From contig RKSL01000015.1 in assembly GCA_008633435.1 (NCBI GenBank), positions 1 through 34,900 of the forward strand: a stretch of 34,900 nt of DNA, given 5' to 3'. A program made the position numbers and the translations under genes. The stretch is from Candidatus Desulfobulbus rimicarensis. GTDB lineage: Bacteria; Desulfobacterota; Desulfobulbia; Desulfobulbales; Desulfobulbaceae. Shown here piece after piece: positions 1 to 24,064 of the stretch (positions are counted from its first letter, which is position 1; every line of letters starts with the position of its first letter). The notes beneath the pieces were generated by a model. That model saw only the letters and a list, made by a program, of their open reading frames with translations. It made no database searches and was not told where the DNA came from.

Positions 1-1974
1 CATGGAGCCTTGAAATTTTCCGACCATCCCCGTGCACTGGTCAAAAATATCGACATCAGCGCCGCCTTGAGTGCCGAAGGCGTTAAAAAAGTGCTGCTGG
101 CAGCGGACATTCCCGGGCAACGTAATTCCGGCCTGATTGTCGAAGACTGGCCGCTGATGATTGAGTGTGGCGAGATCACCCGTTATATCGGAGATGTGCT
201 GGCCTCGGTGGTTGCCGAGACCGAGGCGCAGGCACGGGCGGCCGTGTCGCTGATTGAAGTGGAATATGAAGTGCTTGAGCCTCTGCTTGACATGCACAAA
301 GCGCTGACCAGTGATATCAAAGTGCATAAAAACGGTAATCTGCTCGGTGAAAAAATCATCCGTCGGGGCGATACCAAAGGATTACTGGCATCCTCCGCCT
401 TCACCGCCCAGGGGACATTTACCACCCCCACCATTGACCACGGCTTTCTGGAAACCGAATGCTGCGTGGTTATCCCAAAGGAAAAGGGCATAAAAGTTTT
501 TACCCAGTCCCAGGGTCCTTACCGGGAGCGGGACGAAATCGCCCACCAGCTCGGCCTTGGTGAAGAGCAGGTTGAAGTGGAGGTGATCGACTGCGGCGGC
601 GCGTTCGGCGGCAAGGAAGACATGACCGTGCAGGGCCACGCGGCTCTGGCCTGTCACCTGCTGGGCGTGCCGGTGAAATATAAACTTTCCCGCCCCGAAT
701 CTATCCGCATGCATCCCAAGCGCCACCCCACCTCGCTTGCATACACCATCGGCTGTGATGAAAACGGCAAACTCACTGCCCTCCATGCCCGGATTATCGG
801 CGATACCGGCGCCTATGCCTCGGTGGGCGGCCCTGTTATGGATCGGGCCGGCACCCATGCCTCGGGCGGTTACCATTTTGAGGCCGTGGATATCGAAGCA
901 CGCTCGGTCTATACCAATAATATCCCCTGCGGCGCCATGCGTGGTTTCGGGGTTAACCAGGCCACCTTTGCCCTGGAAAGTCTGATTGACGAGCTGTGCA
1001 GCAAAGGTGGTTTTGACCGTTGGCAGTTTCGCTATGGCAATGCCCTTGATATCGGCTCCATGCTTGCGCCTGGCCAGGTGCTGACAGCAAGCGTCGGCCT
1101 GAAGGAAACCCTGCTCAGTGTCAAGGACGCCTATGACAAGGCCAAATACAAGGGACTTGCCTGTGCCGTTAAAAACTGCGGTGTGGGGAATGGTATTCCA
1201 GAGCTTTCCCGGGTTGTCATCGAGATTGGCGAGGGTGGCAAAATACTCCTGCATCATGGCTGGACGGAAATGGGGCAGGGTGTGCATACCATTGCCCGCC
1301 AGGCATTATGTGAGGCCACCGGCATTGATGACATCGACCTGATCACCCCCTTTGTCACCACGGCCTCCGGAGCTGTCGGCGGCCCAACTACGGCCAGCCG
1401 CGGCACTCTGCTGCTGGGACGGGCTATTATTGACGCTGCTGCCGATCTTAAAAAAGACCTCCAGACCCATAGTCTGGCCGAGCTTGCCGGTAGGAGCTAT
1501 CGTGGCGAATTTCTCTGCGATTATACCCAGGCGGAAGGGGAACCGGGCAAGATCATCTCCCATATATCCTACGGTTATGCCACCAATCTGGCCATTCTGG
1601 ACGATGAGGGCAATCTGGAAAAGATTATCGCCTCCCATGATGCCGGAAAAATCCTTAACCCTAAACTCTTTCAGGGGCAGATCGAAGGCGGCGTGGCCAT
1701 GGGCGTGGGCTATGCACTGAGTGAAAAGGTACCGCTGAAAGACGGCTACCTCACCTCTGGGAAATACCGGGCGTTGGGGTTGCCCAGAATCAATGATCTC
1801 CCGGAAATAGAGGTGATCGGCGTCGAATCAGACGATCCGGAGGGGCCATTTGGCGCCAAGGGGGTGGGCGAAATAGGCTGCATTGCCACGGCTCCTGCCA
1901 TTGCCAATGCCTTTTGCGATTATGACGGCACCAGGAGATACGCATTGCCATTGGAGAAACCGGAAAAGAAATAA
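1..1974 (+). CDS. Selenium-dependent xanthine dehydrogenase, molybdenum-binding part (5' end cut by window edge)
   Basis: The frame is open from the first base, so the real start lies upstream; a TTG at position 10 is only an internal codon. About 657 residues are visible of a family usually near 850 residues, so the missing part should include the N-terminal 2Fe-2S domain. Visible motifs of the xanthine dehydrogenase large domain are CGGAFGGKED (near residue 200), GAMRGFG (near 312), EMGQGVHT (near 423) and GAKGVGE, which carries the catalytic Glu at visible residue 624. The end region (SYGYATNLAIL, GQIEGGVAMGVGYAL) resembles the Se-dependent xanthine dehydrogenase family as I recall it rather than E. 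coli XdhD. Known for the family: hydroxylation of purines at a Mo site carrying a labile selenium. It leads a run with ssnA, hyuA-like, ygfK and yqeB. Family confidence is high; the exact substrate is inferred. Confidence 0.9.
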   Translation, partial: HGALKFSDHPRALVKNIDISAALSAEGVKKVLLAADIPGQRNSGLIVEDWPLMIECGEITRYIGDVLASVVAETEAQARAAVSLIEVEYEVLEPLLDMHKALTSDIKVHKNGNLLGEKIIRRGDTKGLLASSAFTAQGTFTTPTIDHGFLETECCVVIPKEKGIKVFTQSQGPYRERDEIAHQLGLGEEQVEVEVIDCGGAFGGKEDMTVQGHAALACHLLGVPVKYKLSRPESIRMHPKRHPTSLAYTIGCDENGKLTALHARIIGDTGAYASVGGPVMDRAGTHASGGYHFEAVDIEARSVYTNNIPCGAMRGFGVNQATFALESLIDELCSKGGFDRWQFRYGNALDIGSMLAPGQVLTASVGLKETLLSVKDAYDKAKYKGLACAVKNCGVGNGIPELSRVVIEIGEGGKILLHHGWTEMGQGVHTIARQALCEATGIDDIDLITPFVTTASGAVGGPTTASRGTLLLGRAIIDAAADLKKDLQTHSLAELAGRSYRGEFLCDYTQAEGEPGKIISHISYGYATNLAILDDEGNLEKIIASHDAGKILNPKLFQGQIEGGVAMGVGYALSEKVPLKDGYLTSGKYRALGLPRINDLPEIEVIGVESDDPEGPFGAKGVGEIGCIATAPAIANAFCDYDGTRRYALPLEKPEKK

Positions 1975-2083: not shown

Positions 2084-3370
2084 ATGACTCTTTACCTGCA
2101 GAACACACAATATATTGACGCCCAAACCCTGAACGTCACCTCGACCCATCTAATGGTTGAGGAAGGGACCGATGGTACGGTAACACTGATTGATACAATT
2201 CCAACTGCCGGAGAACGCCGGGAGGATGACCGGGTCATCGACTGCAAGGGGCGGTTTGTTACCCGTTCGTTCGGCTGCGGTCATCACCATATCTACTCGG
2301 CGCTCTGCCGGGGTATGCCTGCCCCACCGCAGATTCCCAACAATTTTGTGGAAGTGCTTAAATATGTCTGGTGGCGGGTGGATGGTCGTCTTGATCTGCC
2401 CATGGTTGAGGCCAGCGCCCTGGCCGCAGGCCTGCAGATGGCCCGGCGCGGGGTGACCTTCTGTATTGATCATCATGCCTCGCCCCTGCACGTGGAGGGC
2501 AGTCTGGAAACTATTGCCAAGGCCTTTGAACGCTGCGGTATCGGTCATCTGATGTGCCATGAATCTTCAGACCGCAACGGCGTTGAAGCCGCTGAAAAAA
2601 GTCTGTCCGAGCATGACAGCTATCTGGCCTCGGGTCGTCCCGGCCTGATTGGGCTGCACGCCTCGTTTACCGTCGGTGATGAGTTGCTCTCAAAATCCGT
2701 TGAACTGGCCCGCAAATACAACACCGGCCTGCATATCCATGTGGCCGAAGATCAGGCCGACCAGGCGCATTGCAGGCAAACCTACAACAAACGGGTGGCG
2801 GAGAGACTGTGGGACATGGGCGGGCTGGAAAGCCCGAAAACCATTCTCGGCCACTGCGTGCACTGCAACGATGAAGAACGAAAAATCATTGCCGACTCCG
2901 GGGTCTGGGTGGTGTCAAATGTTGAATCCAACCAGAATAACAATGTCGGCCTGACCGATTATGACTGGCTGGACAACATCATGCTGGGTACCGACGGCAT
3001 GCATAATGACATGCTTCGCTCTGCCAAGGCGCATCATCTCTGCTGTTCCACCACCGGCGGCATAGGTTATGACGAAGTGTACCGCCGATTCCGCAACGTG
3101 CATACCTATCTTGCCCAGTTTGACGGCGTGGGTGATGGCGAAAACAATCTGGTCATTCTCGATTATGATACCCCCACGGAACTCAACAGCGACAATTTTT
3201 ACGGTCATTTCCTGTTCGGCCTGGAGGCATTACACGTTGACACAGTCATTTCCCGGGGACAGGTTATTGTTGAACAGAGAAAATCAACCCTGGTCGATGA
3301 AGAGGAAATTCTTGGCTTTGCTCGTGAGCAGGGCTTGCGACTCTGGGAGGCTTTACAAAAATACCAATGA
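2084..3370 (+). CDS. ssnA: SsnA-type aminohydrolase
   Basis: A 428-residue amidohydrolase-superfamily protein. The metal ligands are visible: HxH at H67/H69 in GCGHHHIYSALCRGMP, the histidine of GLHIHVAED (near 217), the GHC of ILGHCVHC (near 256), and the Asp of GTDGMHND (near 303). The motif FVEVLKYVWWRVD and the conserved DHHASP are characteristic of SsnA, the putative selenium-metabolism aminohydrolase. SsnA genes travel with ygfK and Se-dependent xanthine dehydrogenases and were reported as part of a bacterial urate-degradation gene set; the exact reaction is unsettled. The ATG at 2084 follows an aaagga site. Its stop overlaps the next gene by four bases (ATGA), indicating translational coupling. 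Cytosolic; no signal peptide. Confidence 0.9.
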   Translation: MTLYLQNTQYIDAQTLNVTSTHLMVEEGTDGTVTLIDTIPTAGERREDDRVIDCKGRFVTRSFGCGHHHIYSALCRGMPAPPQIPNNFVEVLKYVWWRVDGRLDLPMVEASALAAGLQMARRGVTFCIDHHASPLHVEGSLETIAKAFERCGIGHLMCHESSDRNGVEAAEKSLSEHDSYLASGRPGLIGLHASFTVGDELLSKSVELARKYNTGLHIHVAEDQADQAHCRQTYNKRVAERLWDMGGLESPKTILGHCVHCNDEERKIIADSGVWVVSNVESNQNNNVGLTDYDWLDNIMLGTDGMHNDMLRSAKAHHLCCSTTGGIGYDEVYRRFRNVHTYLAQFDGVGDGENNLVILDYDTPTELNSDNFYGHFLFGLEALHVDTVISRGQVIVEQRKSTLVDEEEILGFAREQGLRLWEALQKYQ

Positions 3371-4737
3371 AAACCCTGGTGACAAACGGCATAGTGGTTA
3401 CATCCACCACATCGTTTCAATCGGATCTCCTGATTGAAAATGGCCGTATTGGTGCCATTGGCTCTGCCCTTTCCAGCCCGAATGCAACAATTATTGATGC
3501 CGCAGGCTGCTACGTCATGCCCGGCGGTATTGATGTCCATACCCATCTCAATCTTGAGGTGGGCGGTGAGAAGGTCAGCGACGGTTTTTACGCCGGTTCG
3601 GCGGCTGCGGCCTTTGGCGGCACCACCACCATTGTCGAGCATCCGGGATTCGGGCCGCCAGGCTGTGATCTGAATTACCAGACCAATTTGTACCACCAGC
3701 AGGCCGACCGGGAAATGGTGATTGATTATGGCCTGCATGCGGTCATCCAGCATGTTGACCGGGCTGTGTTGGAGGGCATAACTCTCCTGCCCGAGCAAGG
3801 CATTGCCAGCCTCAAGGTCTACCTGACCTACTCCGGCCGACTGGGCGATGAAGCAATTATTGAGGTGTTGAAAACTGCCCATGCAGCCGGAGTACGGGTT
3901 GCCTTCCACGCGGAAAATCACGCAATTATTTCCTCTCTGACAAACACATTCCGTGCCCGGGGCCACTGTACGGACCCGGGACTGCATCCTGCAAGCCGTC
4001 CCGACTATGCCGAGGCCGAGGCCGTTTTCCGCCTGATTCAGCTTGCCCGAGCCGCCGGCGAGGTTCCCGTTTACATCGTCCATCTCTCCACGGCTGCGGG
4101 CCTTGATATCATCCGTAAGGCCCGCAGGCAGGGCCGAGAAGTATATGCGGAAACCTGCCCCCAGTACCTCTGCCTCAATGAAACCTGCTACCAACAGCCG
4201 GACGGGCTGCAGTATGTCCTGTCGCCGCCCCTGCGCAGGCAGGAAGACTGCGACGCCCTGTGGGACGGTCTTGGAGACGGCTCCATTGATGTGGTGGCCA
4301 CTGACCACTGTTCCTTTTCTCTGGCGCAGAAGATGCAAAAAGGAAAAACAGATATTTTTGCCGCGCCCGGTGGCATTCCCGGAGTGGAAACCCGAATGCC
4401 GCTGCTCTTTAGCGAAGGAGTGGTAAAAAAACGTATTGACCTGAACCGGTTTGTTCGGTTGACGGCGACAAATCCGGCAAAGATCATGGGACTGGCCCCA
4501 CAAAAAGGTGACCTGATCGTCGGCGGTGACGCCGACATCATTATTCTTGAGCCAAGAATAAAAAAAACCATTTCCAGCCGACTGCTGCACCAGGATGTGG
4601 ACTATACACCCTTTGCCGGTATGGAAATCCAGGGCTGGCCGACAACGGTAATCCAGCGGGGTCAGATTGTTATAAAGGATGAACAACTAAAAGTCGCCAG
4701 GGGAGCCGGCTCCTTTGTGCAGCGAAAAATTCAGTGA
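3367..4737 (+). CDS. hyuA: Dihydropyrimidinase / hydantoinase-family cyclic amidohydrolase
   Basis: A 456-residue protein with the full binuclear metal site of the hydantoinase/dihydropyrimidinase family: HTH (H58, H60) in GGIDVHTH, a Lys at 150 in ASLKVYLTY that is normally carboxylated, H181 in FHAEN, H239 in VHLST and D313 in ATDHC. The family hydrolyses cyclic amides such as hydantoins, dihydropyrimidines or allantoin. Between ssnA and ygfK this matches the hyuA position in described urate-degradation clusters, so a purine-derived cyclic amide is the likely substrate (inference). It overlaps ssnA by four bases and is separated from ygfK by 29 bases. Allantoinase is an alternative reading of the family. 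Confidence 0.88.
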   Translation: MKTLVTNGIVVTSTTSFQSDLLIENGRIGAIGSALSSPNATIIDAAGCYVMPGGIDVHTHLNLEVGGEKVSDGFYAGSAAAAFGGTTTIVEHPGFGPPGCDLNYQTNLYHQQADREMVIDYGLHAVIQHVDRAVLEGITLLPEQGIASLKVYLTYSGRLGDEAIIEVLKTAHAAGVRVAFHAENHAIISSLTNTFRARGHCTDPGLHPASRPDYAEAEAVFRLIQLARAAGEVPVYIVHLSTAAGLDIIRKARRQGREVYAETCPQYLCLNETCYQQPDGLQYVLSPPLRRQEDCDALWDGLGDGSIDVVATDHCSFSLAQKMQKGKTDIFAAPGGIPGVETRMPLLFSEGVVKKRIDLNRFVRLTATNPAKIMGLAPQKGDLIVGGDADIIILEPRIKKTISSRLLHQDVDYTPFAGMEIQGWPTTVIQRGQIVIKDEQLKVARGAGSFVQRKIQ

Positions 4738-4766: not shown

Positions 4767-7568
4767 ATGAGAAAAGATCTTTTTGTCTGTACCGATATAG
4801 ATACCCTGCTCCAATGGATCCTTGCTGATCTTGACGGGAAAAATGAGATATTCGGCATTAGCCGCAACCAGTTTTTCATCCCGTCCACCGATGATCCTTT
4901 TCGCACGAGCCGTTACGCTCAGCTGCTGGAAACACCCCTTGGCGTGGCCTCCGGGCCGCACACACAGCTGGCGCAGAATATTGTCGCGGCCTGGCTCACC
5001 GGCAGTCGTTATATCGAGCTGAAAACAATTCAGGTGCTGGACGAGCTTGATGTGACCAAACCCTGCATCGACATGACCGATGAGGGGTATAACTGCGAGT
5101 GGTCGCAGGAGTTGAAGCTGGATGAATCGTTCAACGAATACCTGAACGCCTTTATTCTGCTCTATATTCTCCGTGATAAACTGGGTTTTGCAGGCGATGA
5201 ACCGGGTTTTATTTTTAACATGAGCGCGGGATACGAACTCAAGGGAATCCACAGTCCGTCGGTGCAGCGTTTTTTCGATCGAATGGAGGATTGCTCGGCG
5301 GAACTAACAGCAAAAATAGAAAAAATCGCTCCCATCTACCCACGGGTGCGGGAGCTGAACATCCCGAGCCGGATCAGCAACAGCCTGACCATCTCCACCA
5401 TGCACGGCTGCCCGCCCGATGAGATCGAAAAAATCGCCCGCTACTTTATAGAAGAGCGCGGCTACCATACCACCATCAAACTCAACCCGACCCTGCTTGG
5501 GCCGGAGCGGTTGCGTGACATTTTAAACAATAAGCTGGGCTTTCCCATTGATGTGCCGGATCTTGCCTTTGAGCATGACCTGAAATATCCCGATGCAATC
5601 AATCTGATTCGGTCTCTGCTTGATTCCGCCAAAGCACAAGGCGTTGCATTCAACATCAAGCTGACCAACACCCTGGAAACCACCAATATCGATCAGAAAC
5701 TGCCCAAGACCGAGGCCATGTGCTATATGTCGGGCCGGGCGTTGCACCCGATCAGCATCAACCTGGCCGCCCGGTTGCAGGAAGAGTTTGACGGCACGCT
5801 TGACCTCTCCTTCTGCGCGGGTATTGACGCCTTTAATGTCTTTGACACGCTGTGCTGCGGCATGGCTCCCATTACCGTCTGTTCCGATCTGCTTAAACCA
5901 GGAGGCTATGCCCGGGTAAAACAATATGCGGAAACCGTACTGACTGAAATGAAAAATATTGACGCGGGTTCGCTTGATCAGCTGGTCTGTAGCCGGGCGG
6001 ATATGGACAACAGAACCACCGCGGCCCTGACCAACCTGAAAGAGTATGCCGAAACTGTTGTTGAGAGCGGCAGGTATGGGAAAGATCGCTTCCCGCATCA
6101 AAATGTGAAAATAAAACGGCCGCTCCAGCGGTTTGACTGCGTGGCCGCGCCATGTACGGCAAGCTGTGGAGCTTCCCAGGATGTGCCTCGCTACGTGGAG
6201 TATACGGCTCGCGGTGATTTTGAAAACGCCTATAAAATCATCCTGGCGACCAACCCCTTTCCCAATGTGCTGGGCAGACTCTGTGAGCATCCCTGCCAAC
6301 AAAAATGCACCCGGATAAACTACGATTCTCCTGTGCGTGTTCGCGACATCAAACGATTTGTTGCCGAAACCCTGCAGGAAGAAACTGTACTCTCTGCCGG
6401 GCCGGATAACGGGAAAAAAGTCGCGGTTATCGGGGCCGGGGTGTCCGGTCTTTCAGCGGCATTCTTTTTGGCCCTTGAAGGATTTCAGGTTGATGTGTAT
6501 GAAGCCGGAAAATCTGTCGGGGGCAGGGCTGCTGATGTTATTGCCGCTCTGGGGACTAAAGATGACATCCTGAAAAAAGATATTGACCGCATCCTGGCTC
6601 TCGGAGTCAACCTGCATACGGACATGCGTGTTACGGAAGAAATATTTAGCCAACTCCGCAGCTCCCATGATTGTATCTATATCGGTGTCGGCGCCGGGGA
6701 AGGATCCGGAAAGAATCATCTTGATTTTCTTGCCGATGGCGAGCTGAGTGTTGACGGAAAAACCCTGCGCTCAACCCTGCCCTTTGTGCTGGCAGGGGGA
6801 GATGCCATAGAAAAAACATCACTTGATACCGCCGTTGGCCATGGCAGACTGGCGGCGGAATCCATTGTTGCCGCCTGCGGATTTTCTTCACAAATTGATA
6901 GAGCGCCGGCTGATGATCGCCAAGCTGACCTCAACTGGTGGTACAGCCGAAACGCGGTCAGAACTGCCGGTGTTGATAATGAAAAAAATCCGCTTACCAG
7001 AGAAGAGGCAATGGCCGAGGCAGCACGCTGCCTGCAATGTGATCTTCTCTGCAACATCTGTGTAACGGTTTGTCCCAACAGGGCAAATGTCGCCTTAAAA
7101 GCTGACCCGGTATCCTATCCTGTGCAGAGTATCCTTGCCGATGGTTCCATTGAGACAAGCGGACAGATTGAACTGACCCAGCCCTACCAGGTCATAAACA
7201 TCCCGGATTTCTGCAATGAGTGCGGCAATTGTAAAACCTTTTGTCCGACAAGCGGAGCGCCCTGTTTTGCCAAATCCCATGTCCATCTTTCTGAAAAAAG
7301 CCTTGAGGCGCACGGGGAAGGGTTTTATATGGCAGAGCCTGATGTAATGTATATCATGGCAGGCGGCAAAAAGGGTACGCTCACCCAAAACGGTGCACTA
7401 TGTATTTATGAAGATGCAGAGGTCAAGTTCAACCTGGACAGGGAGACTTTGCAGGCATCAAACGTCCAACTCAAGGGGAAGGTGAAAAACAAAAAACTGC
7501 GCAGAATTGCCGAAGGGGCAGTGCTGTTTACCCTGCTGGCCGGAAAATATCCGTTTATTCGGCAATAG
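4767..7568 (+). CDS. ygfK: YgfK-like iron-sulfur flavoprotein, apparently lacking the NAD(P)H-binding domain
   Basis: A 933-residue protein; E. coli YgfK is about 1030. The N-terminal part resembles a dihydropyrimidine/dihydroorotate dehydrogenase barrel (GPHTQLAQNIVAAWLTG near 72, STMHGCPPDEIEKIARYF near 211, KLNPTLLGPERL near 235). A GltD-like cysteine region follows (CVAAPCTASCG from residue 458; CEHPCQQKC near 510), then an FAD dinucleotide fold (VAVIGAGVSGLSAA near 553). Two C-terminal ferredoxin-like clusters lie at residues 755 onward (CLQCDLLCNICVTVCPN) and 816 onward (CNECGNCKTFCP). The second Rossmann domain with a GxGNxAxD motif, expected between the FAD motif and the returning PFVLAGGDA segment (near 672), is absent. 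Role inferred: an electron-transfer or reductase partner in purine breakdown with SsnA and the Mo hydroxylases. Confidence 0.88.
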   Translation: MRKDLFVCTDIDTLLQWILADLDGKNEIFGISRNQFFIPSTDDPFRTSRYAQLLETPLGVASGPHTQLAQNIVAAWLTGSRYIELKTIQVLDELDVTKPCIDMTDEGYNCEWSQELKLDESFNEYLNAFILLYILRDKLGFAGDEPGFIFNMSAGYELKGIHSPSVQRFFDRMEDCSAELTAKIEKIAPIYPRVRELNIPSRISNSLTISTMHGCPPDEIEKIARYFIEERGYHTTIKLNPTLLGPERLRDILNNKLGFPIDVPDLAFEHDLKYPDAINLIRSLLDSAKAQGVAFNIKLTNTLETTNIDQKLPKTEAMCYMSGRALHPISINLAARLQEEFDGTLDLSFCAGIDAFNVFDTLCCGMAPITVCSDLLKPGGYARVKQYAETVLTEMKNIDAGSLDQLVCSRADMDNRTTAALTNLKEYAETVVESGRYGKDRFPHQNVKIKRPLQRFDCVAAPCTASCGASQDVPRYVEYTARGDFENAYKIILATNPFPNVLGRLCEHPCQQKCTRINYDSPVRVRDIKRFVAETLQEETVLSAGPDNGKKVAVIGAGVSGLSAAFFLALEGFQVDVYEAGKSVGGRAADVIAALGTKDDILKKDIDRILALGVNLHTDMRVTEEIFSQLRSSHDCIYIGVGAGEGSGKNHLDFLADGELSVDGKTLRSTLPFVLAGGDAIEKTSLDTAVGHGRLAAESIVAACGFSSQIDRAPADDRQADLNWWYSRNAVRTAGVDNEKNPLTREEAMAEAARCLQCDLLCNICVTVCPNRANVALKADPVSYPVQSILADGSIETSGQIELTQPYQVINIPDFCNECGNCKTFCPTSGAPCFAKSHVHLSEKSLEAHGEGFYMAEPDVMYIMAGGKKGTLTQNGALCIYEDAEVKFNLDRETLQASNVQLKGKVKNKKLRRIAEGAVLFTLLAGKYPFIRQ

Positions 7569-7586: not shown

Positions 7587-8399
7587 ATGAGAGATTTAAC
7601 CAGATTACATATCATCATGCGAGGTGCCGGCGATCTGGCGACAGGGGTTGCCCTGCGTCTGTACCGGGCTGGTTTCAGGCGACTGCTGCTGCTGGAGACT
7701 ACGCATCCTCTTGCAGTACGGCGGCTGGCTTCTTTTTCAGAAGCTGTTTACCGGAAAACTGTTATGGTGGAGGGGGTCGGAGCAAGGCTTGTTGATTCCC
7801 CTGATCTTGCAGAGCGCTGCTGGCAGGATGGTGAGATCGCAGTGGTTGTCGACCCCGGGGCGCAATGTCTGGCCTTGAGTTCTCCGGATGTGGTCATTGA
7901 TGCCATTATTGCCAAGCGAAATCTTGGCACCAGTCTCAGCAACGGGAAATTGGTCATTGGCCTTGGTCCAGGATTTTCCGCTGGAGTTGATGTACATTGT
8001 GTTGTAGAAACCATGCGCGGTCATAACCTTGGCCGGGTACTGTATGAAGGGGCAGCTCAGGCTGATACCGGAGTTCCAGGCGCCATAGAGGGTATGACCA
8101 CAGAACGTCTGCTTCGGGCACCAGGTGAGGGCATTTTTTTAACCGCGCTTGATATCGGCTGTCGGGTGGCGGCAGGTGAGGAGATCGGCCGGGTGGATGA
8201 TGTACCGGTACAGGCGGCAATATCCGGGGTACTGCGCGGTCTGTTGCGCAACGATACTCCGGTGCGTGCAGGAACCAAACTGGGCGATATTGACCCGCGC
8301 AGTAACAGAGAATTTTGTGCTACAGCCTCAGATAAGGCGCTGGCCATTGGCGGTGGCGTGCTGGAGGCGATACTGCACCGGGAACATGCAAGCTGCTGA
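7587..8399 (+). CDS. yqeB: YqeB-family selenium-dependent molybdenum hydroxylase maturation protein
   Basis: A 270-residue protein opening with MRGAGDLATGVALRLYRAGF after ten lead residues, a characteristic start for the YqeB/EF2563 family. Further family-like segments are VVVDPGAQ, VIGLGPGFSAGVDVHCVVET and GRVLYEGAAQADTGVPG. The family co-occurs with Se-dependent molybdenum hydroxylases and is thought to help install or mobilise the labile selenium cofactor; the biochemical step is not established. The start at 7587 keeps the residues before the glycine-rich motif; an ATG at 7617 would begin right at it and is less likely. It lies 18 bases after ygfK and 57 bases before xdhA, so it can serve both dehydrogenases. 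Confidence 0.9.
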   Translation: MRDLTRLHIIMRGAGDLATGVALRLYRAGFRRLLLLETTHPLAVRRLASFSEAVYRKTVMVEGVGARLVDSPDLAERCWQDGEIAVVVDPGAQCLALSSPDVVIDAIIAKRNLGTSLSNGKLVIGLGPGFSAGVDVHCVVETMRGHNLGRVLYEGAAQADTGVPGAIEGMTTERLLRAPGEGIFLTALDIGCRVAAGEEIGRVDDVPVQAAISGVLRGLLRNDTPVRAGTKLGDIDPRSNREFCATASDKALAIGGGVLEAILHREHASC

Positions 8400-8456
8400 A
8401 TTAAAATCAGCACAGGATAGATCTGTATACCATGCACAGCAGGAGTGAGAGAAATT

Positions 8457-10739
8457 ATGACCGTTGGTAAATCACCTATTCGCAAGGATGTACGGGCCAA
8501 AGTAACCGGAAAGACCCGTTATACCGATGACTTCACCATGCCCGGCATGCTGGAGGCAAAATATGTCAGAAGCTCCATCGCCCATGGGCGGGTGACCAGC
8601 ATCGACACCTCGGCTGCGTTGGCCATACCCGGTGTTGAGGCGGTGTTTACCTTTGCCGATGTCCCCAAGACTCTCTTCCCCACTGCCGGCCATCCCTATT
8701 CTCTTGATCCTGACCATCAGGACGTTGCCGATCGGCTGTTGCTGACAGATCATGTCCGTTATCATGGCGACGAGGTTGCCATTGTGGTGGCTCGTGACCA
8801 GCTTACTGCCCACAAAGCGGCAGAACTCGTTCTGGTGGAGTATGACGAACTTCCTGTCTGCGTTACTTCGGCTGCTGCCATGGCAGACGAAGCACCGCCC
8901 ATCCATCCCGGTGGCAATACGATTAAATCGACCAGCTTTGCTGTCGGCGGTGACCCCAAAGAGGCTGAACAGGCAGCCGATGTCGTCTGTGAGGGCGTCT
9001 TCACCACCCCTGTCATCCTGCACTGTCATCTGGAAAACCACACTGCCTATGCCTACATGGATGATCAAAACCATCTGGTCATTGTCAGCTCCACCCAGAT
9101 CCCCCATATCTGCCGTCGTATTGTCGGCCAGGCGCTGGATATGAACTGGTCGACAATCAGGGTCATCAAACCCTACATCGGCGGCGGCTTCGGTAACAAA
9201 CAGGATGTGGTGCTCGAACCCATGGTGGCTTTTCTGACCCGCAAACTGGGGGGCGTGCCGGTAAAACTTGAGCTTGAACGGGAGGAATGTCTGGTCAGTA
9301 CCAGAACCCGCCATGCCCAGACCATCACCGCCCGGGCCGGAGCACAAAACGATGGGTTGCTCACGCTGCTGGACGTGAATGTTCTCTCCAACACCGGAGC
9401 CTATGCCTCCCACGGCCACTCCATTCCCATGGCTGCCGGTTCCAAATTTTGTCATCTCTATCCCCGGGCAGTAACACAGTTTTCTGCCACTTCCCATTAC
9501 GCCAACATCCCTGCTGCCGGAGCCATGCGTGCCTATGGTTCCCCTCAGCTCTTTTTTGCTGTTGAGGGGGTTGTAGAAGAAGCAGCCCGGAAAATTGGCA
9601 TGGATTCGGTGGAATTTCGTCTGAAAAATTCGGCAAGACCCGGTGATATAACCAGTAAAACAGGAGAGATGCTTCACTCGGTGGGGATGATTGAATGTCT
9701 GGAAAAGGGCAGGGATGCCATAGAATGGCAGAAAAAGAAAAAACGCTATGCCGATCAAGAAGGCACCATCCTTCGAGGCCTGGGCGTTGCCTCGTTCAGT
9801 TATGGTTCCGGCACCTATCCTGCCTGTGTGGAGATTGCCGGATGCCGTCTGGTATTGAATCAGGACGGTACTGTCCATATGCAGGTCGGCGCGACGGAAA
9901 TCGGGCAGGGCTCAGATACCGTTCTTGCCCAGATGGCCGCTGAAACTCTGGGTATTGATTATGATGCCGTGCATGTGGTGTCTGAGCAGGATACCGATGT
10001 CACCCCCTTTGATACAGGCGCCTATGCCTCCCGACAGACCTATGTGGCGGCGCCGGCAGTGCATGACGCCGCAGAACAGCTTAAGGGAAAAATTCTTGAT
10101 CATGCCAGCCTCATGACCGGTGTTGATCGTCAGCAGCTTGATCTCTCTGCAGGCCGGGTGGTGAGAGGAGATCAGCCGGATCAGGTGGTGCTTCCCCTGG
10201 AAGAGCTGGCCCTGGACAGTTATTACCACAAGGATCGGGGCGGGCAGCTCACGGCAGAGGTTTCGGTCAAAACACGCACCAATGCCCCCAGTTACGGCTG
10301 TACCTTTGTCGAGGTGGAAGTGGATATTGCGCTCTGTCAGGTGAAGATTATAGAGATCATTAATCTCCATGATGCGGGTACAATAATTCATCCGTTATCG
10401 GCAGAAGGCCAGGTACATGGCGGCATGGCCATGGGGATAGGCATGGCGCTTTTTGAAGAGTTGCTGATAGATGATGAAACAGGCTGGATTTATAACGGTA
10501 ATCTGCTCGATTACAAGATCCCCACCTGTATGGATATTCCGGAGCTTGACTGTGCCTTTATCCAGACCCATGATCCGACCAGTCCCTACGGTAATAAATC
10601 CCTGGGGGAACCACCCATTATTTCGCAGGGACCGGCAATACGCAACGCGATCTGGGATGCCACAGGCGTAAAAATACAGACCATGCCCATGACCCCCAAG
10701 GTGCTGTTTTCCCATTTTCGCGAGGCAGGGCTTATTTGA
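8457..10739 (+). CDS. xdhA: Xanthine dehydrogenase, molybdenum-binding subunit (XdhA, E. coli naming)
   Basis: A 760-residue molybdopterin subunit closely resembling E. coli XdhA along its length: VRAKVTGKTRYTDDF near the start, SSTQIPHICRRIVGQALD near 219, IGGGFGNKQD near 241, GAMRAYGSPQ near 356, GATEIGQGSDT near 478, and SLGEPP with the catalytic Glu at 718. It hydroxylates hypoxanthine/xanthine-type purines at a Mo-pterin site and passes electrons to the Fe-S and FAD subunits encoded next. I chose ATG 8457 because an aggag site sits about 11 bases upstream; an in-frame GTG at 8445 overlaps that site. This is a different lineage from the first gene in the window, so two purine hydroxylases coexist. 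Confidence 0.93.
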   Translation: MTVGKSPIRKDVRAKVTGKTRYTDDFTMPGMLEAKYVRSSIAHGRVTSIDTSAALAIPGVEAVFTFADVPKTLFPTAGHPYSLDPDHQDVADRLLLTDHVRYHGDEVAIVVARDQLTAHKAAELVLVEYDELPVCVTSAAAMADEAPPIHPGGNTIKSTSFAVGGDPKEAEQAADVVCEGVFTTPVILHCHLENHTAYAYMDDQNHLVIVSSTQIPHICRRIVGQALDMNWSTIRVIKPYIGGGFGNKQDVVLEPMVAFLTRKLGGVPVKLELEREECLVSTRTRHAQTITARAGAQNDGLLTLLDVNVLSNTGAYASHGHSIPMAAGSKFCHLYPRAVTQFSATSHYANIPAAGAMRAYGSPQLFFAVEGVVEEAARKIGMDSVEFRLKNSARPGDITSKTGEMLHSVGMIECLEKGRDAIEWQKKKKRYADQEGTILRGLGVASFSYGSGTYPACVEIAGCRLVLNQDGTVHMQVGATEIGQGSDTVLAQMAAETLGIDYDAVHVVSEQDTDVTPFDTGAYASRQTYVAAPAVHDAAEQLKGKILDHASLMTGVDRQQLDLSAGRVVRGDQPDQVVLPLEELALDSYYHKDRGGQLTAEVSVKTRTNAPSYGCTFVEVEVDIALCQVKIIEIINLHDAGTIIHPLSAEGQVHGGMAMGIGMALFEELLIDDETGWIYNGNLLDYKIPTCMDIPELDCAFIQTHDPTSPYGNKSLGEPPIISQGPAIRNAIWDATGVKIQTMPMTPKVLFSHFREAGLI

Positions 10740-10754
10740 CCGGCTGAGATTGCA

Positions 10755-10796
10755 GAGGTGTTGCTGTGAGACCTGCATTTCTGTAACACCTCACAG
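10755..10796 (+). promoter_or_regulatory. Competing stem-loops between xdhA and xdhB
   Basis: An 8-bp exact inverted pair (gaggtgtt at 10755-10762 with aacacctc at 10785-10792) overlaps a second 7-bp pair (ctgtgag at 10764-10770 with ctcacag at 10790-10796). The two stems share bases and cannot both form fully. No T-run follows, so this is not a standard terminator. It may be an intercistronic RNA element that tunes xdhB translation or message stability. Confidence 0.4.
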
Positions 10797-10827
10797 AGTT
10801 ACTCACCCGGCGAGGAGTTACGAAAAA

Positions 10828-10872
10828 ATGTATCAAGACGATATTGAACGAGAGAGCACATGTTTCCAATAG
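10828..10872 (+). CDS. Possible 14-residue leader peptide overlapping the xdhB start
   Basis: A short frame, [14 protein letters not shown], begins at ATG 10828 behind a good gaggag site at 10812-10817 and ends with TAG at 10870-10872, inside the first codons of xdhB (ATG 10860). The ribosome site is better than the one immediately before xdhB (gagaga), so translation of this frame could deliver ribosomes to the xdhB start by coupling. I recognise no homologue, and a frame this short can arise by chance. Confidence 0.3.
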   Translation: MYQDDIERESTCFQ

Positions 10873-11735
10873 AAAAATACTACTTTGCCGCAACCATTGA
10901 GGATGCCATTGCCGCACTTGAGGCCGATGAAAAGGCCCGGGTGATAGCAGGCGGTACAGATGTGCTGGTGCGGTTGCACGGTGGCAACCCCGATTATGGT
11001 TGCCTGGTGGATATCAATGGTCTGGACGAGTTGCGTCAAATCAGCATGGACGGGGAAGGCAATATTTTTATTGGTACCCTGGCAACCTGTAGCGAAATCA
11101 TAGAGCATCCTCTGGTCCAGGAGCATCTGCCCATGGTTGTCCAGTCCCTGGAGACCATAGGCGGCCCGCAGGTACGTAATACTGCAACCATGGGCGGCAA
11201 TATCTGTAATGGTGCAGTCAGCGCCGACAGTGCGTGTGCAGCCCTGGTGTATGAAATGGATCTGCTTATCCGCAACAGTAAGAGGGAGCGCATTCAATCC
11301 ATTAACGGTTTCCATACCGGGCCAGGGCGTACCGTGCTTGGCCGGGGCGATCTGTTCACGGCTTTTTGTATACGCCCGCAAAAATACCGGAATATGGGCG
11401 CAAGTTATTATAAATATGCCATGCGCGGAGCCATGGACATTGCCACCATTGGCTGTGGCGCCGGGGTACGAATGGCCGATGGCGCAGTCACAGAACTGAA
11501 ATTGGCTTTTACCGTGGCTGCGCCCACCCCGATTCGTTGTCCCCATGCCGAAGAAGCTGTCCTGGGTAAACCTGTCAACGCAGAAACTCTGCAACAGGTT
11601 GCCGATGCTCTGCTGGAGGACGTGCGTCCCCGTGATTCATGGCGGGCGGGCAAAGAATTTCGGTTGCATATTATCAAAACCCTGGCCCAAAAAGTGATTG
11701 GTCAGGCCGCAGAAAACCTGGGAGGTACCTTGTGA
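10860..11735 (+). CDS. xdhB: Xanthine dehydrogenase, FAD-binding subunit (XdhB)
   Basis: A 291-residue FAD subunit of the CO dehydrogenase/xanthine dehydrogenase medium-chain family, matching E. coli XdhB (about 292 residues). Visible FAD contacts are [12 protein letters not shown] (residues 29-40) and [16 protein letters not shown] (from about 110); a C-terminal CODH-type domain follows ([18 protein letters not shown] near 183, AAPTPIRC near 222). It takes electrons from the Mo site through the 2Fe-2S subunit and hands them to an acceptor, usually NAD+. It lies 120 bases after xdhA, the largest gap inside this operon, and its last base is the first base of the xdhC start codon (TGATG). Confidence 0.92.
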
Positions 11736-12202
11736 TGCAGAGCAGGACAATTTCCATGCAGATTAACGGCAAGAGCTATCAGGAGGAAGTGGACGTGCGT
11801 AAATCCCTGATGGAGCTGTTGCGTGAATTGGGGTTGACCAGCGTCAAACAGGGCTGCGGCGTTGGAGAATGCGGTGCATGCACGGTGCTGGTGGATGATA
11901 TCGCCGTGGATTCCTGTCTCTATCTTGCGGTCTGGGCCGACAACAAAGCCATTCGCACTGCAGAGGGGGAATGCAGAGGCGAACAGCTCTCGCCGGTACA
12001 GCAGGCATACGTGGAAGAAGGGGCGGTACAATGCGGATTCTGCACACCCGGACTGATCATGGCCTCCACCGCTTTTCTGGAAAAGAATCAGGGCAAAAAA
12101 CCCGGTCGCGAGGAGATCCGCCGGGGACACGCCGGCAACCTTTGCCGCTGTACCGGCTACCAGACCATTATTAGCGCTGTGGAAAAGGCTGCTGAAAAAT
12201 GA
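11735..12202 (+). CDS. xdhC: Xanthine dehydrogenase, 2Fe-2S subunit (XdhC, E. coli naming)
   Basis: A 155-residue two-cluster iron-sulfur subunit. The plant-ferredoxin-type cluster uses C41, C46, C49 and C61 ([17 protein letters not shown]). The second, helical domain cluster uses C100 and C103 (QCGFCTPG) and C137 and C139 (NLCRCTGY). This is the small electron-transfer subunit linking the Mo and FAD subunits. ATG 11735 overlaps the xdhB stop by one base and has a ggaggt site eight bases upstream; the open frame extends further 5' inside xdhB but that extension is not needed. The end overlaps guaD by four bases. It should not be confused with the XdhC/CoxI maturation family encoded at 29361-30365. 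Confidence 0.93.
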
Positions 12203-13524
12203 GTGGTACGGGTCTTGCCATCCGGGGGCGATTTGCCGATATAACCGGATCAGGAGTAGAAAACACGGCAGAACGGCTCCGGGAGCAGGACGATGGTTTG
12301 TTGCTGATCAGGGACGGACTGATAGAGTGGTTTGGCCCGTGGCAGGAACGTTGTGGTACAATCCCGGCCAGCTATGGTCTGCACGACCACAGAGGGAAAC
12401 TGATTGTTCCGGGGTTTATTGACAGCCATGTCCATTTTCCACAGACTGCAATTATCGGTTCCCATGGTGAGCAACTGCTTGAATGGCTGGAAAATTACGC
12501 CTTCCCGGCAGAAAAACGGTTTGCTGATAGAAAATATGCAGGCCGGATGGCAAATTTTTTTATCCGGGAGCTGCTGCGGAACGGCACCACCAGCGCCATG
12601 GTGTTTTCCACTGTCCATGCTGGCTCGGTGGAAGCGGTTTTTGAGGCAGCTCTTGCGAGAAATATGCGGCTTATCAGCGGCAAGACACTGATGGATCGAA
12701 ACGCGCCTGAGCAGCTCTGCGACACCCCGCAAAGCGGCTATGACCAGAGCCGGGAATTGCTCAAAAAATATCACAACAACAAACGCCTTCTCTATGCGAT
12801 TACGCCCCGTTTTGCGCCCACCTCAAGCCCGGAACAGCTAGCAGAGGCGGGACGGTTGAAAAGGGAATTCCCGGATGTGTATGTCCAGACCCACCTCTCG
12901 GAAAACAGGGCAGAGATAGCCTGGGTACGGGAGTTGTTTCCGGAACGCGCCACTTACCTGGACGTGTATGACCATTATGGCTTAACCGGGCCACGATCCA
13001 TTTTTGCCCATTGTCTCCATCTTGAGGATGAAGAATGGCAGGGGCTTGCCCGCACAGGTTCAACCATTGCTTTCTGCCCGACCTCCAACCTTTTTCTGGG
13101 CAGCGGTCTGTTTTCTCTGGATCGTGCCCGGCAGGAGCAGGTACGGGTGGGCATGGCCACAGACGTGGGCGGCGGCACATCATTTTCTCTGCTGACTACC
13201 CTGGGCGAAGGGTATAAGGTACTGCAGCTCCAGCAGCAGAATATGGCAGGGGCTGAGGCTCTCTATCTGGCCACCCTTGGCGGAGCAGAGGCGCTTGGGC
13301 TTGATCATCTCCTTGGTAGCTTTACCCCCGGCAAGGAGGCGGATTGCATTGTTCTTGACCCCGGGGCAACGCCCCTGCTTGAGCTGCGCAGCAGTCAGGC
13401 GGAGAGTATTGGCGAGCTGCTCTTTGCCCTGATGACCCTGGGGGATGACCGGGCTGTCTCCCATACCTATGTAGACGGCAGGCTGGTGCATAAACGGGGA
13501 GAAGTCATGGGATGCAAAGGTTGA
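12199..13524 (+). CDS. guaD: Guanine deaminase
   Basis: A 441-residue zinc amidohydrolase very similar in layout to E. coli GuaD (439 residues). Visible are the HxH metal site at H77/H79 ([13 protein letters not shown]), [19 protein letters not shown] (near 90), LMDRNAP (near 155), [16 protein letters not shown] (near 195), THLSEN (near 233), FAHCLHL (near 271), [14 protein letters not shown] (near 293) and the catalytic Asp in [10 protein letters not shown] (near 320). It converts guanine to xanthine plus ammonia in the cytosol. Coupling to xdhC by an ATGA overlap fits a guanine-to-xanthine-to-urate route. Confidence 0.94.
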
Positions 13525-13555: not shown

Positions 13556-15133
13556 ATGACATTAACTAACATAAATATACCCCGGCTGCAACTGGAGGGG
13601 ATGACCAAAATCTATCCGGCAGTCATTGCCAATGAATCCATTGATATGACCATTGCCCCCGGCGAAATCCATGCGGTTCTGGGGGAAAACGGTGCCGGTA
13701 AGAGCACGCTGATGAAGATGATTTACGGCGTGATTAAACCGGACAGAGGGCGCATTCTCTGGAATGGCGAACCGGTGGACATAACCAATCCTGCCCATGC
13801 CAGAAAACTGGGAATAGGCATGGTCTTTCAACATTTTTCCCTGTTTGAGACGCTGAGCGTGGCCGAAAATATCAGCCTTGCCATGGAGGATTACGGCAGC
13901 CTGGATGATCTTTCCCGGCGCATCAGTGAAGTCTCAGAGGAGTATGGACTTCCCCTCGATCCAGGGCGTATGGTTCATTCGCTTTCCGTGGGGATTCGTC
14001 AGCGGGTCGAGATCCTGCGCTGCCTGCTCCAGCAGCCGAAACTGCTGATTATGGACGAGCCCACCTCGGTGCTGACACCCCAGGCTGTGCGAAAAATGTT
14101 TGCCACCCTGCGTCGGCTGGCAGCGGAGGGTTGTTCTATTTTGTATATCAGTCATAAACTTGACGAGATCATGGAACTGTGTCACAGCGCTACCATTATC
14201 CGGGGGGGCAAGGTGACCGGCTATGCTGTTTGCGCAGAGGAAAGCGCGGCAAGCCTTGCCAGGATGATGATTGGCCGCGAACTGCCGACCTGCTCACGAA
14301 AGCGTCCTGATGTTGAGGGCCAGGAATGTCTGCGGGTGAACCGGCTCTGTAAAATTGCAGCTGATCAGTTTGGTACCAGCCTTGAGCGGGTGAGTTTTTC
14401 TGTATATTCCGGTGAGATTGTCGGCCTTGCCGGCATTTCCGGCAACGGTCAGCAGGAGCTGCTGTACGCCCTGAGCGGGGAGCGGCCGGTGGCAGATCGT
14501 GGTGCCATCACCATTGATGGTGAATCTGTGGGGCATCTCAATGCGGCGCAGCGACGTGAGCTTGGCCTTGGTTTTGTGCCGGAAGAGCGGCTGGGTAGAG
14601 GTGCTGTTCCAGGAATGTCATTGTCCGACAACGGTATTCTCACGGCACATCGTCACGGCATGGTCAGGAAGGGGTTGCTGGATTTTGGCCGGGCAAAGCG
14701 GTTTGCGCAAAAATGCGTTACTGATTTTACCGTGAAATGTGGCTCTGTGGATGATTTGATAACCAGTTTATCCGGGGGGAATATTCAGAAGTTTATTACT
14801 GGACGTGAGATTTTGCAGCAGCCTAAACTGCTTATCGTGTCTCAGCCAACCTGGGGAGTTGATATCGGTGCGGCCAATATTATCCGCCAGGCAATGATTG
14901 ATCTGCGTAATAATGGCAGTGCAGTGCTGGTGGTCTCTGAAGAGCTGGATGAGCTGTTTGAAATATGTGACCGGCTGCTTGTTATCGCCCGGGGCAGGGT
15001 CTCCCCATCAGTTAAGGTAGAGAAGACCAGCAAAGAGGAAATCGGGCTCTGGATGAGCGGCATGTTTCCAGGCGGGCCAGTCGATACGAACAAAGCCCGG
15101 GAGCTGCAAAGTGAGGGATGCTGTGTTGATTAA
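13556..15133 (+). CDS. BMP-type purine/nucleoside ABC importer, ATP-binding protein (system 1)
   Basis: A 525-residue duplicated ATPase of the YufO/RbsA-like carbohydrate-nucleoside class. The first domain has Walker A GENGAGKST (residues 43-51), signature LSVGIRQRVE (near 142) and Walker B LLIMDEPTSVLTP (near 162). The second domain has a degenerate Walker A GISGNGQQEL (near 291), LSGGNIQKF (near 405) and a Walker B ending SQPTWGVDIGA (near 428), where the usual Arg after QPT is Trp. It powers the permeases encoded next. ATG 13556 has no clear ribosome site; an ATG at 13601 has ggagggg directly upstream but would remove part of the first strand. It overlaps the next gene by 23 bases. Confidence 0.9.
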   Translation: MTLTNINIPRLQLEGMTKIYPAVIANESIDMTIAPGEIHAVLGENGAGKSTLMKMIYGVIKPDRGRILWNGEPVDITNPAHARKLGIGMVFQHFSLFETLSVAENISLAMEDYGSLDDLSRRISEVSEEYGLPLDPGRMVHSLSVGIRQRVEILRCLLQQPKLLIMDEPTSVLTPQAVRKMFATLRRLAAEGCSILYISHKLDEIMELCHSATIIRGGKVTGYAVCAEESAASLARMMIGRELPTCSRKRPDVEGQECLRVNRLCKIAADQFGTSLERVSFSVYSGEIVGLAGISGNGQQELLYALSGERPVADRGAITIDGESVGHLNAAQRRELGLGFVPEERLGRGAVPGMSLSDNGILTAHRHGMVRKGLLDFGRAKRFAQKCVTDFTVKCGSVDDLITSLSGGNIQKFITGREILQQPKLLIVSQPTWGVDIGAANIIRQAMIDLRNNGSAVLVVSEELDELFEICDRLLVIARGRVSPSVKVEKTSKEEIGLWMSGMFPGGPVDTNKARELQSEGCCVD

Positions 15134-16199
15134 GATTGAACCCCGTCCAGAGCCGTCAAGGGTTATGCGCTACTGCTCACCCCTGCTGGCGGCACTGCTT
15201 ATGCTTATCAGCGGCCTGATTATTTTTACTCTGCTGGGCAAGAATCCGGTAGAGGCGTTCCACGCCTTTTTTGTGGAACCAATCAATGATTTTTATGGCC
15301 TTGGCGAGCTGTGTATCAAGGCTTCTCCCCTGATGCTCATCGGTACCGGACTGGCTGTGGGGTTTCGCGCCTCCATTTGGAATATCGGTGCAGAAGGTCA
15401 GCTGGCGATCGGCGCTCTCTGTGGTGGGGCTGTGGCAGTCTATTTCAACCAGTCCAGCAGCGGCTTTATTCTGCCGGCTATGATCTCTGCAGGTGCTGTC
15501 GGCGGAATGTTGTGGGCATCAATCCCGGCGTTATTGCGGACAAAATTTAATGCCAATGAAATTCTTGTTTCACTCATGCTCAACTATGTGGCCATCCTGC
15601 TGCTGGCAATGCTTGTGCACGGGCCGCTGCGTGACCCGGACGGTTATGGGTTTCCCCAGTCGGTACTCTTTGGCGAGTCCGCAACATTACCGATCATGAT
15701 CGAAGGCACCCGGCTCCATGTTGGTGTACTGCTTTCTCTTGCCGGGGTTGTTGCAGGCTGGGTGTTTCTGGAAAAGAGTTTTACCGGATACCAGATCAGG
15801 GTGGCAGGTGGTGCTGGCAGGGCTGCAACCTATGCGGGGTTTGAGTATAACCGCCTGATCTGGATCGGTTTGCTGGCAGGTGGCCTGGCCGCCGGTGTTG
15901 CCGGAGTTATGGAAATTGCCGGCCCCATTGGCCAGTTGTTGCCCTCGGTTTCTCCAGGGTATGGCTATGCGGCTATTATTGTTGCCTTTGTCGGCAGGCT
16001 GCATCCGGGCGGGATCTTTCTAGCCAGCCTGCTCATGGCTTTGCTCTACCTTGGGGGTGAGTCTGGGCAGATGAATCTTGATCTGCCTTCGGCGGTTACC
16101 GGAATTTTTCAGGGTCTGCTCCTTTTTTATCTGCTGGCCGCTGATTTTCTGGTGAACTACCGTATCCGGACAAAGTCGTCGCAGCAGGAGGGAAATTGA
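15111..16199 (+). CDS. BMP-type ABC importer permease (system 1, first permease)
   Basis: A 362-residue inner-membrane permease of the BPD_transp_2 family (YufP/NupP-like). The first hydrophobic segment is at about residues 22-42, and family motifs include GFRASIWNIGAEGQLAIGAL (near 84), FNANEILVSLMLNYVA (near 145) and LPSVSPGYGYAAIIVAFVG (near 280). Known role: one half of the heterodimeric channel for purines or nucleosides. The start is GTG 15111 with gggag upstream; GTG 15123 and TTG 15126 are in-frame alternatives, so the N-terminus is uncertain by a few residues. It overlaps the ATPase gene by 23 bases and its stop shares a base with the next ATG. Confidence 0.9.
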   Translation: MRDAVLIKIEPRPEPSRVMRYCSPLLAALLMLISGLIIFTLLGKNPVEAFHAFFVEPINDFYGLGELCIKASPLMLIGTGLAVGFRASIWNIGAEGQLAIGALCGGAVAVYFNQSSSGFILPAMISAGAVGGMLWASIPALLRTKFNANEILVSLMLNYVAILLLAMLVHGPLRDPDGYGFPQSVLFGESATLPIMIEGTRLHVGVLLSLAGVVAGWVFLEKSFTGYQIRVAGGAGRAATYAGFEYNRLIWIGLLAGGLAAGVAGVMEIAGPIGQLLPSVSPGYGYAAIIVAFVGRLHPGGIFLASLLMALLYLGGESGQMNLDLPSAVTGIFQGLLLFYLLAADFLVNYRIRTKSSQQEGN

Positions 16200-17128
16200 T
16201 GGATCTCTCGCTTGTTCTGCATATTATGGTGGCTGCAGTGGCTGCTGGCACCCCCTTTGTTTTTGCGGCCCTCGGAGAGCTGGTTACAGAAAAATCAGGG
16301 GTGCTGAATCTGGGGGTTGAAGGCATGATGCTGGTCGGGGCAATTACCGGGTTCATTGCCATGGCCAAGAGTGGCAGCCTGTTGCTTGCTGTTGTCAGTG
16401 GCATGGCCGCCGGTGCAGCCATGGCGGCAGTATTTGGAGTGCTTACCCTGACACTTATGGCCAATCAGGTGGCAAGTGGTCTTGCCCTGACTATTTTCGG
16501 CATGGGGCTTTCCGCCTTTTTAGGCTTGGATTATACCAGCTTTGCCCTGCCCGGCGTGGCTGAACTGCATCTGCCTCTGCTCAGTGATCTGCCCGTTATC
16601 GGGCCGCTGCTGTTTTCCTATGATGTTTTGGTTTACAGTTCAGTTGTGCTCTTTGTTGCTGTTTCCTGGTTTCTCTACAAAACCCGGGCAGGACTTTTAC
16701 TCAGAGGTATTGGCGAAGCACCTGAGTCGGCGCATGCCCTTGGTTACAATGTGATCGGCATTCGCTATCTGGCAGTACTCTTCGGAGGAGCCATGGCCGG
16801 GCTGGGCGGGGTGTATCTGTCGGTAGCCTATACGCCGGTCTGGGTTGAGGGCATGGTTGCCGGCCGGGGATGGGTGTCGCTGGCTCTGGTGGTGTTTGCC
16901 ACCTGGAGACCGTTGCGGGTGATGGCCGGGGCGTATCTGTTTGGCGGGATCACCATTGCCCAGTTTCATGTCCAGGGATTTGGCATTGAAATACCTTCCC
17001 AGCTGCTTTCCATGCTGCCCTATATTGCAACGATTATCGTCCTGGTGGTTATCTCCAGGGATCAACAGACGATCAGGTTGAATTCTCCGGCATCTCTGGG
17101 TAAAACATATCATCCTGAAAATCAGTGA
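16199..17128 (+). CDS. BMP-type ABC importer permease (system 1, second permease)
   Basis: A 309-residue membrane protein of the YufQ-like half of BMP-type importers. It has [19 protein letters not shown] and [13 protein letters not shown] near the start, [11 protein letters not shown] in the middle, and [14 protein letters not shown] with [17 protein letters not shown] in the second half. About eight to nine hydrophobic segments are visible. ATG 16199 overlaps the previous stop by one base (TGATG), with ggaggg upstream. It should pair with the previous permease. A 222-base gap with a weak hairpin follows before the binding-protein gene. Confidence 0.9.
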
Positions 17129-17150
17129 TGGTGAATCGTCAAAACCATCA
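17126..17150 (+). terminator. Weak terminator-like hairpin after the second permease
   Basis: tgatggt (17126-17132) and accatca (17144-17150) form a 7-bp stem with an 11-base loop starting at the permease stop codon, followed by the T-rich ttgattttt. The stem is short and AT-rich, so partial termination or message-end protection is more likely than full termination. A 9-bp piece, aaaccatca, recurs inverted at 17249-17257 (tgatggttt). The remainder of the gap to the binding-protein gene (17151-17350) shows no gene and no promoter I can defend. Confidence 0.4.
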
Positions 17151-17350
17151 TTGATTTTTGTGCGATACGGTGCAGGTTGCAGTGTATTTGCCACGCCTCA
17201 GTGACCGGGTTTCCTCGTCGGTTGTGGTTGACGATTATGATTCAGCCATGATGGTTTATGCGGCAACAGTACAAAATATGTGACCGTTCACCAAGGGAGC
17301 TGTAGCCTTGATATTACACCAAAATATTAACCAAAGGAAAGGAGAGCTTG

Positions 17351-18436: not shown

Positions 18437-18449
18437 TTTTATTGAATTT

Positions 18450-18481: not shown

Positions 18482-18504
18482 GAAACGGGCATACACATTT
18501 ATCC

Positions 18505-20536: not shown

Positions 20537-20580
20537 AACAACGGCTATCACCCATTATTTACTTTAAAGGAGAACCTGAA

Positions 20581-24062: not shown

Positions 24063-24064
24063 AT

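Follow-up and report, generated by a model that had tools for sequence, protein, structure and literature searches.

The closest described system is the YgfK protein of E. coli, a NAD(P)H-dependent yanthine reductase which, together with SsnA, turns yanthine into ureidomethyl-hydantoin (PMC12507026). In C. difficile the place of YgfK is filled by UacX, a protein without an FAD domain that was assayed with reduced methyl viologen (PMC12507026). Clostridial PydAc, a ferredoxin-dependent dihydropyrimidine dehydrogenase, has both Fe-S domains while its NADH/FAD domains are absent (PMC7332683). The reductive urate pathway, elucidated as late as 2025, gives a meaning to the form of YgfK described below; what donates its electrons is still an open matter, as has been stated for the urate reductase XdhAC (PMC12990295). 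In the papers searched, by titles, abstracts and term counts and by full texts in part, none was seen to describe a YgfK devoid of the NAD(P)H domain.

The DNA analysed here (34,900 nucleotides of contig RKSL01000015.1 of Candidatus Desulfobulbus rimicarensis, hereafter the window) carries at 4767..7568, on the forward strand as are its parts and the genes up to guaD given below, an uninterrupted ORF of 933 aa which by its operon context and AlphaFold model (pLDDT 90.4) we assign to a short form of ygfK, a yanthine-reductase homologue. It is of the same lineage as E. coli YgfK (b2878, TIGR03315) and has the same domain order. The FMN-barrel domain of DHODH/DPD type (residues ~10-430, 4794..6056), the predicted purine-reduction site, is recognised by structural match, conserved columns and low dN/dS. 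It is followed by the N-terminal-type [4Fe-4S] domain Fer4_20 (residues 457-539, 6135..6383; PF14691, E=4e-20), which retains its six invariant Cys, by the first half of the FAD Rossmann fold (residues 551-640, 6417..6686; Pfam, alignment and model), with GxGxxG, Glu579 and GG retained, by the second half of the FAD domain with its AGGD motif (residues 672-705, 6780..6881; alignment and model) and by a C-terminal ferredoxin-like domain (7029..7247), which on the alignment has 9 invariant Cys, is predicted to hold two [4Fe-4S] clusters and shows an unchanged rate in the short clade.

Against TIGR03315 (YgfK / Se_ygfK) the window protein scores 688 bits, under the curated full-length equivalog cut-off of 835.3 that is exceeded both by an intact relative (L016, 881 bits) and by E. 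coli YgfK (1,779 bits); being below the annotation cut-off of a family named 'selenate reductase', such a protein would be missed or misnamed. In the scan of its own genome, profile positions 8-634 correspond to window 4794-6704 and positions 786-969 to window 6720-7349, and ~150 profile positions (~635-785) are skipped at window 6705-6719. Pfam recovers Fer4_20 and the start of the FAD Rossmann fold, with Pyr_redox_2 sub-threshold; in intact L016 Pyr_redox_2 spans residues 551-839. The GxGNxA motif is absent from the 933-aa translation.

The sequence-only reading had proposed that a second Rossmann, NAD(P)H-binding domain is missing in frame at 6420-6840. The peptides it quoted (residues 553-563, VAVIGAGVSGL, and 585-596, 611-622, 636-648 and 672-683) do lie there, at window ~6423-6815, and the absence is confirmed by the alignment, by modelling alongside a positive control and by its recurrence in five further genomes. 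Across 91 aligned homologues, the segment from '...CIYIGV' to 'FVLAGGD' measures 180-188 residues in 79 full-length relatives, as against 40 for the window protein and 37-46 for five other short forms; the other low values come from sequences truncated at contig ends and from L036, discussed below. The distribution is bimodal, 180-188 vs 37-46, and the difference in length is far beyond chance. The loss had been put at roughly 100 residues; the protein is indeed shorter than E. coli YgfK (1,032 aa), from which that figure came, but in comparison with close relatives (1,091-1,129 aa) ~134 domain codons are missing, together with 10-15 linker residues in some members, these being the window protein and L013/L014.

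In intact relatives the motif LDFL flanks the NAD(P)H domain on both sides, 134-135 codons apart (the second copy reads LGFL in L016). The short forms have a single copy, with the upstream residues ahead of it and the downstream residues behind: GKNH-LDFL-ADGELSV in the window protein (GKNH-LDFL junction at 6705..6731; profile gap 634->786 at 6704/6720) and GMIEH-LDFI-PEGEIEV in L011. As judged from the junction, this fits an in-frame excision between the short LDFL repeats. The linker remnants differ, GMIEH being kept in L011 and not in L013/L014. An intact NAD(P)H fold elsewhere in the window protein, the finding against which the sequence-only reading had set its claim, was not found. A split gene or a separate NAD-domain gene was considered and rejected, since an intact 142-residue domain matched only two full GltD-like proteins in the source genome and no stand-alone NAD domain. 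Alignment and model together indicate that the nested NAD(P)H-binding Rossmann domain is lost from this YgfK homologue with clean boundaries, the FMN and Fe-S sites being retained. That NAD(P)H is not used at this site, as had been suggested, would follow from the predicted loss of the fold.

The AlphaFold2 model of the window protein, built on 67 own-locus sequences (pTM 0.90), comprises the FMN barrel, the Fe-S domain and a closed FAD Rossmann fold with strands at 551-555, 574-578, 615-617, 636-639 and 674-676, and a low-confidence loop (~641-660) replaces the NAD(P)H domain. In the model of intact L016, the positive control, this domain is present, with strands and helices at 680-784. The FMN-barrel domain matches dihydroorotate dehydrogenases structurally (Z ~25). 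The Fer4_20 and FAD fold of dihydropyrimidine dehydrogenase (DPD; 1GTE/1H7X) and of NfnB (5JFC) superposes on the short model at 2.2-2.6 A; both of these proteins keep an NADPH domain, which is unmatched in the short model. With VIA-align on NfnB (5jfc_L 48-472) the short model superposes over 247 residues (2.2 A) and intact L016 over 380 (1.7 A), and on porcine DPD over about 256 and about 396, respectively. In the models, the 133-residue difference on NfnB is the lost domain.

UacX takes the same reaction slot and, like the short YgfK, has Fe-S and FMN and no NAD(P)H domain; it is viologen-driven, lacks the entire FAD domain and is a homologue of PydA/PydAc and not of YgfK, whereas the short YgfK keeps both FAD halves and Fer4_20. 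PydAc, an FMN enzyme of the same superfamily with ferredoxin as donor, may serve as a mechanistic model, although it acts on uracil and its whole FAD/NAD module is gone, while the short YgfK lost the nested NAD domain alone, and its FAD halves are modelled as one closed fold. As aligned and modelled, the short YgfK is an intermediate architecture, with the Fe-S domains and FAD halves kept and the NAD(P)H domain gone. The best reading, by analogy, is that it is functionally parallel to the FAD-less PydAc and UacX and was reached by partial excision.

As a constraint set we took the 223 columns conserved in >=95% of the 79 intact homologues. Serious departures of the short clade from this set are confined to the NAD domain and to I592, P593, F595 and R596 of the IPxFR motif, the few other changes being mostly conservative. 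In the window protein this motif is degenerate (residues 592-596, IAALG, 6540..6554); its I, P, F and R columns are conserved in 78-79 of the 79 intact homologues and it is broken in every short form. Presumably it corresponds to the IPQFR segment of mammalian DPD, the Arg of which contacts FAD. The FMN-domain columns of the set are retained in the short forms, except for one conservative L->I in L013, and all 15 of the 15 family-invariant cysteines are kept in the window protein, which agrees with the earlier statement that all Fe-S clusters remain.

Pairwise dN/dS values, for which dS is partly saturated, are 0.07-0.12 in short pairs and 0.05-0.06 in intact pairs for the FMN domain, 0.11-0.23 vs 0.03-0.04 for Fer4_20 (a third intact pair being saturated) and 0.10-0.33 vs 0.07-0.08 for the FAD N-half. 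The FMN values (~0.07-0.12) indicate that this domain is under purifying selection. Scaled to the FMN domain, the FAD N-half has a branch length of 2.7 in one short sublineage and 2.6 in the other (0.6-0.85 in intact forms), and Fer4_20 has 2.9 and 1.1 (0.7-1.15 intact), Fer4_20 being accelerated only in the window's sublineage; the C-terminal Fe-S part, at 1.2 and 0.8 (0.65-1.3 intact), shows no acceleration. The Fisher test of Fer4_20 plus FAD N-half against FMN, a weak one, yields p = 0.026, neither domain being significant alone. From these rates and the test, the former NAD(P)H input half therefore looks relaxed, unlike the FMN domain and the C-terminal Fe-S part.

A YgfK-like gene is present in 19 of the 258 genomes of the window's class. 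Besides the source genome (G000), the short form occurs in five other Desulfobulbales genomes (G015/L011, G014/L012, G013/L096, G113/L014 and G097/L013); that of G013/L096 is partial, yet contiguous across the junction. A clade-wide trait, as had been raised beforehand, it is only in part, since close kin, some of the same genus, are intact: intact YgfK is found in G011, of the same family, in G101, G103, G114 and G116, of the same genus as G113 and G097, and in more distant genomes. The short forms descend from within the intact YgfK sequences, being nested among them in trees. The whole-protein tree computed without the lost region unites the short forms in one clade (100/100), and the tree of the FMN domain is compatible with one or two losses in Desulfobulbales. 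Two loss events as well as one come into consideration on the FMN-only tree and the differing linker remnants. A one-clade test that grouped five of the six short sequences rejected the clade solely because the remaining one, L096, had been counted with the other sequences, and we disregard it.

No further short form was found in two other classes of the phylum. In 'Candidatus Desulfovibrio kirbyi', a Trichonympha ectosymbiont of the termite gut, we observed a 916-aa YgfK (L036:8911-11658) without the NAD domain and the second FAD segment inside a complete urate operon. The L036 protein lies apart from the short clade in the FMN-domain tree and has lost more, including the AGGD segment, and because of this the loss of the NAD(P)H domain has at least two origins, in the Desulfobulbales clade and in L036. 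In both independent lineages the Fe-S and FMN positions are kept, and the NAD domain and IPxFR are lost. The genome of 'Candidatus Desulfovibrio kirbyi' is undergoing reduction and has 86 pseudogenes (PMC7608387), and L036 is for this reason weaker evidence for function. A different alteration was seen in Ignavibacteriota-type YgfK-like proteins of normal length (L046, L048, L059, L067 and L086), in which GxGNxA is altered (GAGLSA in L048); judged from sequence, this may perhaps reflect a changed nucleotide preference.

The short ygfK stands among the same operon partners as its E. coli counterpart (ssnA, hyuA, ygeW, ygeY, ygeX and yqeB). The contig starts inside an xdhAC-type urate reductase gene (1..1974), which encodes the Mo domain and has TIGR03311 as best match, sub-cut-off as truncated; no FAD subunit lies beside it. 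Window 1-60 matches the reverse strand of another contig of the genome (C183) about 155 bases from its end, and C183 carries the start of xdhAC with the N-terminal 2Fe-2S part, then ygeW, yqeA, ygeY and ygeX. Downstream of xdhAC follow the ssnA aminohydrolase (2084..3370; assigned by synteny, PRK07203/TIGR03314 being the best matches, below cut-offs) and the hyuA hydantoinase (3367..4737; TIGR02033, above cut-off). Behind ygfK lie yqeB, for a Mo-cofactor/selenium maturation protein (7587..8399; TIGR03309, above cut-off), xdhA-xdhB-xdhC for the Mo, FAD and 2Fe-2S subunits of a xanthine dehydrogenase (8445..12202; Pfam and profile matches) and guaD, guanine deaminase (12199..13524; TIGR02967, above cut-off). 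The set present in the genome is therefore ygeX / ygeY-yqeA-ygeW-xdhAC-ssnA-hyuA-ygfK-yqeB-xdhABC-guaD, with nucleoside-type ABC transporters in addition, and the xdh urate reductase, ygfK, ssnA, hyuA, ygeW, ygeY and ygeX of a reductive urate operon occur together. The core gene order is common to intact and short relatives; in the neighbourhoods compared, the operon of the short forms contains no extra redox gene or replacement subunit, and no ferredoxin gene was seen linked to it. A YgfM FAD subunit for the urate reductase was considered as a correlate of the ygfK loss and rejected, as YgfM is absent beside xdhAC in the neighbourhoods compared, whether ygfK is short or intact.

We consider it probable that the short form, a member of the YgfK lineage, acts as a reductase of yanthine (2,8-dioxopurine) that has turned NAD(P)H-independent and is fed by reduced ferredoxin or a like one-electron donor, PydAc and UacX being the analogy. 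The reaction, left unnamed by the sequence-only reading, would by lineage and operon be that of yanthine reductase in the reductive urate pathway, with yanthine as the presumed substrate. An in-frame excision would have removed the nested NAD(P)H-binding domain, IPxFR being lost as well. Single electrons would then enter from reduced ferredoxin (or flavodoxin) and travel along the [4Fe-4S] clusters to FMN, which would reduce yanthine, and SsnA would open the product. FAD, presumably either relay or relic, would accept no hydride from NAD(P)H any more; against a pure relic, the core motifs GxGxxG, Glu and AGGD are retained, which a vestigial FAD would not need. The earlier suggestion of electron exchange with another partner was thus a fair one, and of the partners it named ferredoxin is the better supported by the PydAc/UacX analogy.

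Alternatively, FAD may still be the entry point, another protein, either a flavoprotein or an NAD(P)H dehydrogenase (e.g., GltD/NfnB-like, or ETF), docking at the site of the lost domain and reducing FAD in trans. The aligned Desulfobulbales short forms retain the core FAD motifs, AGGD among them, and the genome encodes GltD-like proteins whose NAD domain shares 50% identity with the lost one (C228, 494 aa), while C242 carries a long Fe-S/flavin protein. However, both are unlinked to the operon, that of C228 resembles an ordinary subunit of the GltD/NfnB type, IPxFR is lost, the FAD N-half evolves faster and the operon of the short clade has gained no gene, which leaves this reading rather unlikely. 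We regard as unlikely, too, and slightly more so, a third architecture of purine/pyrimidine reductase, in which, hydride transfer from NAD(P)H being impossible, the exposed FAD would be kept and re-purposed as the site where ferredoxin, flavodoxin or ETF docks and where single electrons enter (or are split); if true, the urate pathway of the short clade would be wholly uncoupled from NAD(P)H.

That the gene is decaying, the short form being a remnant with partial activity or none, could be argued from the faster evolution of the electron-input half and from L036, its symbiont genome being in reductive evolution with 86 pseudogenes (PMC7608387), but the frame is open in five Desulfobulbales genomes and one partial sequence, FMN-domain dN/dS is ~0.1, all Cys and FMN-domain conserved columns are kept and the operon is complete, so that decay seems improbable. 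Still more improbable is that the enzyme exchanges electrons directly with the Mo hydroxylases beside it, XdhAC or XdhABC, the other partner proposed earlier, whereby xanthine oxidation would feed purine reduction in one complex: the genes are close in the operon and XdhABC retains its FAD and 2Fe-2S subunits, but nothing specifically favours these enzymes because intact and short clades share the same neighbours, which consequently leave the loss unexplained. An assembly or binning artefact, conceivable as the genome is fragmented and the window one of its contigs, is rejected as having a negligible probability, since the same kind of junction recurs in five other genomes with the frame kept and the flanking residues diverged independently.

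Close relatives of which some have the NAD(P)H domain and others lack it, at about 70-77% overall identity, amount to a natural experiment on a change of electron donor, and studied side by side they could tell which parts of the redox chain remain needed after such a change. Further along the window, two successive BMP-type nucleoside ABC transporter sets (13556-23232), each of an ATPase, two permeases and a binding protein, are followed by a three-gene unit (23229-26846) placed between them and an 8-oxoguanine deaminase; it encodes a P-loop ATPase-like protein of 277 aa (sub-threshold AAA_18 only), a threonine-synthase-like PLP enzyme and a divergent CysK-like PLP enzyme of 494 aa (PALP, 42 bits). 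The purine cluster also includes a gene (28354-29163) for a 269-aa protein that contains DUF5020 and is predicted to be exported; we take it to resemble a Tsx-like outer-membrane nucleoside channel.
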